Origin: a virus
Reading direction: 5' to 3' (one strand)
Length of the DNA stretch: 33,914 nucleotides
Virus record (IMG/VR): IMGVR_UViG_3300035701_000157
Location: 1-33,914 of that record
Below the pieces are notes generated by a model. The model did no database searches. It was not told the origin of the DNA and worked only from the letters and a program-made list of their open reading frames with translations. The translations under genes were made by a program, and so were the position numbers. Shown here piece by piece: positions 372 to 4,116 of this stretch (position 1 is its first letter; each line of letters begins with the position of its first letter).

Positions 372-1985
372 ATGGACTTCAAGACGGACACGAGTTATTT
401 ACCCAAGGACTTACATTTTGGGGATATAGGCAGAAAAAAGTTAATTAATGGTGTATTAAAGATGTCACGTGCTGTAAAGAGCACGTTAGGACCATCGGGC
501 AATACGGTATTGATTGAGTCGCCTCATCACACGCATGGCATTACTGTTACGAAGGATGGTGTTACTGTTGCGAAGTCTGTTGACTTACTTGATCCGGTGG
601 AGAACCTTGCGGTTAAGATGATGAAGGAGGCTGCGGATCGGACGGCTACTGCTGCGGGTGATGGGACTACTACGGCTATTGTTTTAACGGAGGCGTTGGT
701 TCTTGCTGCGGGTGAGCACATCAAAGATGGTCATAATCGCACGGAGGTATTGCGTCATATGGTGGACATATCGGGCAAGGTGGTGGACAAGTTGCGCAAG
801 AAGGCGAAGAAGGTAACGGGGGGTATGTTGGTTGACGTAGCGAGTTTATCGGCGAACAATGACAGGGAGACGGGTCGTATCATTGCCGAGGTCTACAAGG
901 ATGTGGGCAAGAATGGTATTGTTACTGTTGAGAAGAGTCAGAACGCTGAGACGTATGCTGAGACGACGATGGGATTAAAGTTTGACAGGGGTTATATGAG
1001 CTCTATGTTCATCAACGATGTGAAGAAGGATGAGTGTGTCTTTGAGGACACGATGGTATTGGTAGCTGACATGGAGATAGCGAATGTTTTACAGTTGGAG
1101 AATGTATTGAAGCCAATCATCAGTGAGGGTAAGAAGTTATTGATTATCTCTCCTTGCAATGCGAATGTTATTAACACGTTAGCGGCGAATGTTGTGAAGG
1201 GTAATTTAAAGATATGTATTGTATCTCCGCCGAACTTTGGGTACAAGCAACATGAGATCATGCAAGATATTGCTATCAGTGTTGGGGCGACTTATTTCAG
1301 TGAGAAGACGGGTGATGACTTGAGTCATATCAACTATGGCGATCTTGGTCACGCTGCAAAGGTGATCGTAAGCAAAGACAAGACTGTTATTATTAAGTCT
1401 GACTTGAAGTTAGACCAATCGGCTATTGACGAGCGGGTGGCGCAATTGTGGGACGCTCATTCTCAGTCGAAGCGGAAGAACGACAAGGACTTTTTGTTGG
1501 AGCGTATTGCGTCTCTGACGGGTGGCATTGGGGTAATCTTTGTTGGTGGCAATACTGACTTGGAGCAGAAGGAGTTATTTGATAGAGTTGATGATGCGGT
1601 ATGTGCTGTGAGGTCGGCTCTTGAGGAGGGCATCCTTCCCGGGGCGGGCAAGGCGTTGGCTGAGATTAGTGCGGAGTTATTGCTTGACGTGTCGGGCAAT
1701 GGGGAGCTTCATGCTGCAACGCAGATCATCAAGGAGGCACTTGTAGTTCCGATGGTTCAGATATTACTCAATGCCGGCTTAAGTGTTTCTGACATCTATG
1801 ATGGTCAAATTGAGAACGGTTATGGTTATAATGTAAAGACAGGGGAGCATGGGGACTTGATAAAGATGGGTGTCATTGACCCATTGAAAGTAACGAGGTA
1901 TGCTTTACAAAACGCTGTGAGTGTTGCTGTAACGATATTGTCAACCAACTGCATAGTTACAATGGCAAGAACGTATGGGCAATAA
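372..1985 (+). CDS. groEL: Phage GroEL-like chaperonin (60 kDa, Cpn60)
   Basis: Chaperonin subunit expected to form an ATP-driven folding ring. The 537 residues cover the equatorial, intermediate and apical domains at near full length. Visible signatures are TLGPSGNTV (38-46), TKDGVTVAK (60-68), AAGDGTTTA (95-103), FDRGY in the apical domain, RVDDA around 404-409 and EEGILPGAG. The nucleotide and hydrolysis aspartates of E. coli GroEL (D52, D87, D398) correspond to D62, D97 and D408. The N terminus carries about ten extra residues, and the C terminus ends at ARTYGQ with no GGM tail. The start follows a -7 box and an AATCAAATG leader. groES lies 118 nt downstream, so the pair is probably one operon. 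Sequence is far from bacterial housekeeping GroEL (for example PNFGYKQHE where E. coli has GFGDRRKA), consistent with a viral lineage. Likely role: folding of phage virion proteins. Confidence 0.95.
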   Translation: MDFKTDTSYLPKDLHFGDIGRKKLINGVLKMSRAVKSTLGPSGNTVLIESPHHTHGITVTKDGVTVAKSVDLLDPVENLAVKMMKEAADRTATAAGDGTTTAIVLTEALVLAAGEHIKDGHNRTEVLRHMVDISGKVVDKLRKKAKKVTGGMLVDVASLSANNDRETGRIIAEVYKDVGKNGIVTVEKSQNAETYAETTMGLKFDRGYMSSMFINDVKKDECVFEDTMVLVADMEIANVLQLENVLKPIISEGKKLLIISPCNANVINTLAANVVKGNLKICIVSPPNFGYKQHEIMQDIAISVGATYFSEKTGDDLSHINYGDLGHAAKVIVSKDKTVIIKSDLKLDQSAIDERVAQLWDAHSQSKRKNDKDFLLERIASLTGGIGVIFVGGNTDLEQKELFDRVDDAVCAVRSALEEGILPGAGKALAEISAELLLDVSGNGELHAATQIIKEALVVPMVQILLNAGLSVSDIYDGQIENGYGYNVKTGEHGDLIKMGVIDPLKVTRYALQNAVSVAVTILSTNCIVTMARTYGQ

Positions 1986-2046
1986 TAAAATATTAGAGCA
2001 AATTTTAGACGCATATCCTGACGAGGAGACTTATGACGGACCATAA
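1975..2046 (+). CDS. Possible 23-residue micro-ORF overlapping groEL end
   Basis: ATG at 1975 lies inside the last codons of groEL in another frame; the frame reads MGNNKILEQILDAYPDEETY and ends in DGP before TAA at 2044-2046. It is acidic and could form one helix. It overlaps groEL by 11 nt and the next micro-ORF by 14 nt, so ribosomes ending groEL could re-initiate here. No homology is recognised. It may be a chance frame. Confidence 0.3.
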   Translation: MGNNKILEQILDAYPDEETYDGP

Positions 2047-2107
2047 GAGTTCTTCTACTACAGGGGAGAAAACACCAATATTCATAAACGACAATTTCAA
2101 CCAATGA
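2033..2107 (+). CDS. Possible 24-residue micro-ORF coupled to groES start
   Basis: ATG at 2033 is preceded by a purine-rich GAGGAGA stretch, a passable ribosome binding site. The frame encodes 24 polar residues (starts MTDHKSSSTTGEK) and its TGA at 2105-2107 overlaps the groES ATG at 2104 as ATGA, the classic arrangement for translational coupling. It may be a translated peptide, a coupling device, or coincidence. Function unknown. Confidence 0.35.
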   Translation: MTDHKSSSTTGEKTPIFINDNFNQ

Positions 2108-2376
2108 AACCAATGTCATTAAAGCCCATAGGCAAATATATTGCGATTAAAAATATCGAAGAGGAGATTAAGACTGAATCCGGCTTGATACTATCGGGAG
2201 AAGACACCAATCAGCTACGATACAAGAAAGGGTTGGTCATTGCTCCGGGCACGGACGTGGCTGCAATTCAAAAGGATGACATTATCTATTATGATAAGGG
2301 TCATAGTTATACGATGATAATCAATGACGAGCAGATTACTATTATTCGGGAGTCTGATGTCGTGATTGTCGTATAG
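2104..2376 (+). CDS. groES: Phage GroES-like co-chaperonin (10 kDa, Cpn10)
   Basis: Lid of the chaperonin chamber, partner of the GroEL encoded just upstream. The 90 residues match Cpn10 length: KPIGKYIAIK opening strand (7-16), mobile loop with SGLILSG (26-32; LIL in place of the usual IVL contact tripeptide), GLVIAPGTD (43-51), the KDDIIYY strand (58-64) and the closing IRESDVVIV. A second ATG at 2113 could also serve as start; 2104 is preferred because it forms an ATGA overlap with the preceding micro-ORF. The 3' end overlaps the convergent winged-helix gene by 35 nt, so the two transcripts collide tail to tail. Identification as Cpn10 is firm; pairing with the phage GroEL is inferred from adjacency. 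Confidence 0.93.
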   Translation: MKPMSLKPIGKYIAIKNIEEEIKTESGLILSGEDTNQLRYKKGLVIAPGTDVAAIQKDDIIYYDKGHSYTMIINDEQITIIRESDVVIVV

Positions 2377-2785
2377 CGGCATTCATTTCCGTAATCATAT
2401 TACGATAAATCTTATCGGTATAGCATACATTTTTTAAAAACATAGGGTTATAAGATAAGCTAACGGGGATTTCTTCTCCATTTAGTTTTTTATATATATC
2501 TGTGACCAACCGTATTGCTTTATCCGAAAGCTGATATACACCTCTTCGGTTCCCTGTACGTCTACGGAATATTACGATCCAACCTTCACTACGCAATCGT
2601 TCAAATCGGTTTACATCCCATGAAAGGAGTTCATTGAATTGAGAAAATTTGTCTTTACTAAAGTAAGGTTCGGAGTAAAGAAATAGTATCATATCTAGGT
2701 CAGCTTGATTGAGACCATACTTAGCTTTATAGAAATACCGTATTACTCGCCAAAATTTAAGGTAGTCATTTGCTTTTGATTTCAT
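2342..2785 (-). CDS. Winged-helix DNA-binding protein, candidate switch regulator
   Basis: A 147-residue protein and the only confident minus-strand gene. Helices around LNQADLDMILFLYSEPYFSK (25-44) and FSQFNELLSWDVNRFERLR (47-65) are followed by a wing-like GWIVIFRRRTGNRRGVYQLS (67-86), the pattern of MarR/PadR-type winged-helix proteins; the Arg-rich wing fits DNA contact. A C-terminal helix (AIRLVTDIYKKLNGEE) could dimerise. I recall similar small proteins in flavobacterial and crAss-like phages, usually without assigned function. It is convergent with groES (35-nt overlap) and its promoter faces the promoter of the late-gene array. Likely a regulator of that promoter pair or of the early/late change; targets are unknown. 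Confidence 0.75.
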   Translation of the reverse strand: MKSKANDYLKFWRVIRYFYKAKYGLNQADLDMILFLYSEPYFSKDKFSQFNELLSWDVNRFERLRSEGWIVIFRRRTGNRRGVYQLSDKAIRLVTDIYKKLNGEEIPVSLSYNPMFLKNVCYTDKIYRNMITEMNAAIRQSRHQTPE

Positions 2786-2807
2786 TTAATTAAATTTATT
2801 ATCTTTG
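2776..2807 (+). promoter_or_regulatory. Rightward promoter for the small-protein/late block
   Basis: TTG at 2776-2778, a 21-nt spacer and TATCTTTG at 2800-2807 fit the Bacteroidota promoter model (TTG at -33, TAnnTTTG at -7). Initiation is expected near 2813, leaving a leader of about 14 nt before the ATG at 2827. The -33 element lies inside the 5' coding end of the winged-helix gene. This is the best-formed promoter in the window. Confidence 0.65.
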
Positions 2808-2810
2808 ACA

Positions 2811-2839
2811 CAAAGTTAATGGAATTATGAAACACGCAA
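2811..2839 (-). promoter_or_regulatory. Leftward promoter for the winged-helix regulator
   Basis: Read on the minus strand, TTG (2839-2837), an 18-nt spacer and TAACTTTG (2818-2811) resemble a Bacteroidota promoter. Initiation near 2805 would leave about 20 nt before the regulator ATG at 2785. Its -7 box and that of the rightward promoter form a palindrome, CTTTG-ACA-CAAAG (2803-2815), so polymerase cannot occupy both at once. Confidence 0.5.
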
Positions 2840-3000
2840 AAGCAAAGCATAAAAAAACAGCTACGTCAAAGTCGGCTGCTAAAAAGTTTCCAACTAAGGC
2901 TGCAGCTCCTGTTCAAGCTATGCCTGAGCAAGGTGGGATGCCACAAGGACGACCTGATCTTCCCTTGGCGAATACGCCTGAACCACAAATGATGATGTAA
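2827..3000 (+). CDS. Small basic Lys/Ala/Pro-rich protein (57 aa)
   Basis: First gene of the rightward block, starting 20 nt after the -7 box. The N-terminal half is strongly basic (MKHAKAKHKKTATSKSAAKK) and the C-terminal half is Pro/Gly/Met-rich, ending PQMMM, so it is probably disordered. The composition resembles small nucleic-acid-binding or virion-packaged peptides, but no family is recognised. The next gene begins 1 nt after its stop. Being first in a stack of eight similar small genes, it probably shares their expression and perhaps their role. Confidence 0.6.
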   Translation: MKHAKAKHKKTATSKSAAKKFPTKAAAPVQAMPEQGGMPQGRPDLPLANTPEPQMMM

Positions 3001-3825: not shown

Positions 3826-4116
3826 ATGGCTGACAAGTCAAAGATGAAATGCAACCATCCTGTTCCTTCGGATAGACCGGGGAAGAAGATGATGGTCAAG
3901 GCTTGTGCTAATGGAGAAGAGAAACTTCTTCACTTTGGGGCTAAGGGCTATGGCAACAACTATTCTGCTGCTGCTCGCAAGAGTTTTCGTGCGAGGCATG
4001 GGTGTGATGGGGCGACAGACAAGCTAACTCCTCGCCATTGGGCGTGTAGTTACCTATGGAAAGGACCGGGCGGTCCAACCACAAGTAATCCAAGTAATCG
4101 TAAAGGTAAATACTAA
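3826..4116 (+). CDS. Conserved small phage protein with SFRARHGC and WAC motifs (96 aa)
   Basis: A compact 96-residue protein with signatures I associate with a widespread, uncharacterised phage family: KLLHFGAKGYGNNYS (33-47), then RKSFRARHGCDGATDKLTPR (51-70) and HWACSYLW (71-78). Cys60, His58, His71 and Cys74 are spaced to bind a metal or form a disulfide; Cys9 and Cys27 may add ligands. In related phages this domain sits near head-assembly genes, sometimes fused to larger proteins. The tail (PSNRKGKY) is basic. It is the only gene of the array with an evident folded core. Role unknown. Confidence 0.7.
   Translation: MADKSKMKCNHPVPSDRPGKKMMVKACANGEEKLLHFGAKGYGNNYSAAARKSFRARHGCDGATDKLTPRHWACSYLWKGPGGPTTSNPSNRKGKY

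Follow-up and report, generated by a model that had tools for sequence, protein, structure and literature searches.

How does a phage direct the host polymerase at a short interval from which two genes are read in opposite directions, when the promoter boxes of both genes face each other within it? The original prediction took the interval studied here for two face-to-face promoters whose -7 boxes form one palindrome, and proposed a compact bistable or early/late switch, possibly with the regulator bound to the palindrome. We consider it probable that the interval is an overlapping bidirectional sigma-A promoter at which polymerase occupancy is mutually exclusive. The locus lies in IMGVR_UViG_3300035701_000157, positions 1-33,914, a 34-kb fragment of a viral genome that was analysed as a whole and is called the window below. 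The phage is probably a virulent Bacteroidota podovirus, and the group of Bacteroidota phages that carries the arrangement is widespread.

MATERIALS AND METHODS

Profile scans of IMG/VR yielded more than 500 relatives of the regulator; a search of genome contigs for the regulator returned no relative. The comparison set consisted of 186 loci, which gave 129 distinct upstream regions and, with the window, 130 distinct loci. A strict pair was defined as TAnnTTTG-N0..6-CAAAnnTA. As loci were picked by box pattern, figures for box identity are partly forced, and the unforced figure is 122 of 130.

RESULTS

Two promoter boxes face each other beside a lone leftward gene

Between groES and the structural block, the regulator is the one gene that can plausibly be read leftward (Table 1). 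The rightward block first encodes small lysine-rich proteins, then an M15 endolysin, and farther on terminase, portal and virion protein; it thus leads to lysis and structural genes as had been claimed. A 96-aa protein at window 3826-4116 has a partial match to phrog_220 (minor head protein and DNA pilot, E 9.5e-14) and a weak one to DUF5754. The phage-encoded groEL and groES genes (window 372-2376) adjoin the regulator and are kept in nearly all relatives. Upstream of groEL there is a (GA)n run at 275-293, and close to it a further TATCTTTG box at 341-348, which has no TTG at 16-24 nt.

Table 1. Coordinates of genes and promoter features around the regulator junction of the window
Feature	Position	Strand	Remarks
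groES	2104..2376	+	3' end overlaps regulator 3' end by 35 bp, convergent
Regulator gene, 147 aa	2342..2785	-	Predicted MarR/SarA-like winged-helix fold; matches phrog_17028 (unknown function)
Candidate rightward -33 TTG	2776..2778	+	Inside the regulator's first codons; 21-nt spacer to box
A+T element	2785..2799	+	Abuts rightward box upstream; consensus TTnAATTwAwTTTAT; doubles as regulator leader
Rightward -7 box TATCTTTG	2800..2807	+	Fits TAnnTTTG; kept in 122/130 distinct loci
Palindrome CTTTG-ACA-CAAAG	2803..2815	.	Formed by both boxes; gap 0-7 bp in relatives, arms without covariation
Leftward -7 box TAACTTTG	2811..2818 (read 2818-2811)	-	Fits TAnnTTTG; kept in 122/130 distinct loci
First rightward gene, 57 aa, lysine-rich	2827..3000	+	Other small genes instead in most relatives
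Candidate leftward -33 TTG	2837..2839 (read 2839-2837)	-	18-nt spacer to box; not conserved

The motif TAnnTTTG is the -7 box of the Bacteroidota sigma-A factor (PMC7366714, PMC9723704), and in Flavobacterium psychrophilum it occupies positions -12 to -5 (PMC9723704). On re-check both boxes, their coordinates and the two TTG spacers were exact. The boxes are opposed with 3 bp between them. With the F. psychrophilum geometry the rightward start is predicted at A2812 and the leftward one at the A opposite T2806. Both predicted starts thus fall inside the -7 box of the other promoter, in agreement with the original prediction, and the predicted transcripts diverge without overlap. The two starts would be separated by 9 minus the box gap, which gives 6 bp for the window and a range of 2-9 bp for its relatives, and by this geometry the promoter elements of both strands fit within one polymerase footprint. 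Several dozen TAnnTTTG matches are scattered over both strands of the window, and just one strict face-to-face pair (gap 0-6 bp) is present in its 33.9 kb, where Markov-1 sequence of that length would be expected to hold 0.14. Shuffling the 41-bp intergenic sequence produces a strict pair in 0.03% of cases.

The TTG elements are present in the window on both sides, and this part of the claim stands. No favoured spacing of the leftward TTG was found among 86 representatives, and the rightward TTG occurs with a spacer of 21-22 in 23 of these 86, which lends it weak support and may be a coding effect, since the element overlaps the regulator start codons. Likewise, a -33 motif was not found in F. 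johnsoniae (PMC7366714). In the A+T element of the rightward box, the fifth and fourth positions ahead of the box are T in 90% and 96% of the 86 representatives, respectively; at 183 other promoter-like sites, which lack the element, there is at most 0.3 bit per position. When the extended rightward motif was run against six genomes of 60 kb each, the best match was the regulator junction in five of them; the few other matches in the six genomes revealed no regulon.

The pair is kept with the regulator start

In 125-126 of the 129 distinct loci the regulator is flanked by groES on one side and by a divergent block on the other; groES and groEL are on its far side in 125-126 of the 129, and the divergent block is on its near side in most. 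In three loci the regulator is not divergent or is located elsewhere (L002, L003, L108). The face-to-face pair was recovered in 119 of 130 distinct loci by pattern and in 122 with CGAA variants allowed, between the same two gene positions in these 122, and in 57 of 62 clusters at 80% protein identity. Retention of the pair in relatives, an expectation of the original prediction, is thus borne out. Of the 129 focal regions, 87 contain a strict pair, versus 3 pairs in the 960 kb of remaining sequence of the same contigs and pairs at 2 of 183 other promoter-like sites. In the six 60-kb genomes the strict pair, wherever one is found, is at the regulator junction.

The gap between the boxes has a median of 3 bp and an SD of 1.6 bp; when leftward positions are shuffled between loci the SD is 5.1, and the lowest of 5000 shuffles gives 3.8. 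The leftward box keeps a distance of 25 +/- 3.6 bp from the regulator start, and the intergenic length, which ranges over 24-121 bp, follows the rightward leader with a correlation of 0.98. Only 2 of the 129 loci encode a protein similar to that of the first rightward gene of the window. What stays together, as one cassette, is the regulator start with both boxes; the rightward gene and how far away it lies are variable. Mean identity at four-fold synonymous sites of the regulator is 35% (saturation, 29%), and 35-41% in the leader next to the boxes. As the synonymous sites are near saturation, retention of the boxes is not due to recent descent alone, and both boxes are under selection. This comparison shows that selection has kept the boxes, and has kept them next to each other and tied to the regulator start.

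The boxes are in the opposite order in five distant or divergent loci (L062, L063, L136, L143 and, by eye, L001), and one locus (L094) apparently misses the leftward box; a face-to-face order can therefore be dispensed with. In L004, L005, L055, L073 and L087 there is a second rightward -7 box (for example TATATTTG or TATCTTTG), which lies downstream of the pair and nearer the rightward gene.

The main rival to a regulatory reading is passive compaction, which would give the overlap no regulatory role: each -7 box would be needed some 20-25 nt upstream of its own start, and a gap of about 40 bp would force the two to interlock. The spacing fits, as the boxes of the window lie 19 and 25 nt from the start codons and other promoter-like sites mostly 15-26 nt before theirs, and the pairs interlocked in reverse order fit as well. 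However, the rightward box stays by the leftward box even where the intergenic region is as long as 121 bp, and four of the loci just named (L004, L055, L073, L087) add a better-placed second rightward box and still keep the first. We regard passive compaction as a somewhat unlikely explanation of the pair.

The palindrome is not kept as an operator

An AlphaFold2 model of the regulator, built from 30 homologues, is a winged-helix with a mean pLDDT of 68. Its best structural match is Tm0710 (VIA Z 10.7, rmsd 4.0 over 107 residues), and all of its listed PDB matches are MarR- or SarA-like except one fusion chain. MarR Pfam models matched none of 30 family members, and the SarA/Rot Pfam model matched 2 of the 30 (best E 2e-4). 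With moderate confidence, the predicted fold is that of a MarR/SarA-like winged-helix protein, and the winged-helix character claimed for the leftward product is supported by the model and its structural matches.

Palindromes between divergent genes are the typical binding sites of MarR family repressors. A dyad operator CTTTG-N3-CAAAG, at which the bound regulator would close both promoters in a MarR-type autorepressor loop, would suit the MarR-like predicted fold and this usual arrangement, and the symmetry is perfect in several relatives, for instance TATCTTTGTAGCAAAGATA (L030) and TACCTTTGTATCAAAGGTA (L137). The palindrome itself was verified in the sequence of the window. Across relatives, however, all box gaps from 0 to 7 bp occur (7, 5, 18, 36, 12, 32, 8 and 1 loci, respectively), and the consensus letters differ between the boxes, being TAn[AC]TTTG rightward and TA[AT]CTTTG leftward, with C at position 4 of the leftward box in 83% of representatives. 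The free bases of the arms match in 17 loci versus 14.8 expected (p = 0.27), and in the loci with d=3 the central inverted-repeat complementarity is 0.68 versus 0.71 in shuffled columns. A covariation centre at -1.5 (z 6.5) reflects an excess of 4 points only, with relatedness uncontrolled. Because the spacing varies and the arms do not covary, the palindrome is unsupported as a binding site of the regulator; we judge a dyad operator unlikely and read the palindrome, on this comparison, as a by-product of opposed TTTG boxes.

A lysogeny switch is unlikely at the junction

In the six 60-kb genomes a large structural block points away from the regulator; a second large block, on the opposite strand, is found elsewhere, mostly beyond groEL. 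Two large gene blocks do not meet here, because the regulator is a lone gene between groES and a structural block of the same direction; since the other large block starts elsewhere, the junction is an internal restart point that a single gene opposes. A search confined to tyrosine integrases (PF00589) gave no match in 32 near-complete IMG/VR relatives (57-67 kb), nor in MW202828 and elemoE. The only checked relative with such an integrase is the distant Maribacter phage Panino (PP540027.1 71833-72258), and the regulator is not divergent there. The bistable switch of the original prediction is not supported in a lysogeny-type form. Although opposed overlapping promoters do adjoin a winged-helix regulator gene, a switch like that of coliphage 186/P2, be it bistable between lysis and lysogeny or between early and late, is very improbable, because tyrosine integrase is missing from the 32 relatives, and the predicted transcripts do not overlap and the regulator is a single gene rather than the head of an early block.

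Strict pairs in host chromosomes

Strict pairs are mildly enriched but rare in host chromosomes. In about 98 Bacteroidia genomes those with a gap of 0-6 number about 180 versus about 110 in a mirrored control (hand tally), and in 196 Bacteroidia genomes those with a gap of 3 number 70 versus 25. A 21-bp face-to-face element, TTAGATTTGCGGCAAATATAA, recurs in five Bacteroidia genomes (G013, G060, G130, G161 and G190) and is perhaps a conserved host regulatory site.

DISCUSSION

What would an overlapping bidirectional promoter do for the phage? With the -7 boxes opposed only 3 bp apart, the geometry implies one polymerase at a time. Host polymerase would bind the overlap in one direction or the other, never both, and a polymerase held at or leaving one promoter would block the other. 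Given its extra A+T element, the rightward promoter may be the stronger. The MarR-like product may then act on the overlap and thereby limit or time its own synthesis relative to that of the rightward small proteins and structural block. At bidirectional promoters of E. coli simultaneous binding is excluded, and strong activation in one direction represses the other; basal ones are too weak for polymerase competition (PMC12825309). By that precedent, exclusion may be without consequence where neither side is strong. The overlap probably serves autoregulation or timing. We offer only tentatively the fuller reading, in which a purpose-built overlap, common to the lineage, would let the choice of polymerase direction, tuned by the MarR-like protein, time the structural genes, and in which the geometry and not an operator would be the regulatory element under selection.

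Bidirectional promoters and face-to-face phage promoters are already known. The two-box TAnnTTTG geometry, its conservation throughout the lineage and its tie to a MarR-like regulator appear to be undescribed in the limited literature searched. Descriptions of bidirectional promoters so far concern mainly sigma-70 bacteria, and there is very little work on how such promoters are regulated. The relatives assembled here are a natural replicate series of more than 120 loci, with box gaps of 0-7 bp and a different (Bacteroidota) sigma factor, on which one can ask directly whether selection for regulation acts on the geometry of the overlap. They also provide a compact, evolution-tested two-way promoter for Bacteroidota phages, whose promoter architecture is little mapped.

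How does the locus compare with known systems? The regulator resembles the autoregulators MepR, MarR and SarA/Rot in that structure comparison of its model gives a winged-helix and its gene is divergent from its neighbour; it differs from the MarR/SarA family in the Pfam results given above and in that a conserved dyad operator was not found. The Pe and Pc promoters of phage P2 form a face-to-face switch comparable to that of coliphage 186. The latter is cited to Dodd et al. 1990 in PMC5526970. As in 186 and P2, phage promoters are opposed and one of them serves a regulator. However, those phages are temperate, their transcripts overlap and collide, and their regulators form a CI/Cox pair, whereas the transcripts predicted for our locus diverge, the 32 near-complete relatives yielded no tyrosine integrase, and the regulator belongs to no such pair.

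Bidirectional promoters have been described in E. coli and Salmonella by Warman and Grainger (PMC12825309, PMC10268837). The phage locus shares with them opposed -10/-7 elements in a short stretch, and divergent transcripts and steric exclusion of two polymerases, both predicted in our case. To count as a pair in E. coli, measured starts must lie 7-25 bp from each other, whereas the phage starts are predicted and 2-9 bp apart. In the common E. coli class, with starts 18 bp apart, both directions share one near-symmetric -10 hexamer, in contrast to the two separate TAnnTTTG boxes of the phage. In the 10-bp class, by our own arithmetic with the -10 element at -12 to -7, the hexamers would be opposed about 3 bp apart, like the phage pair.
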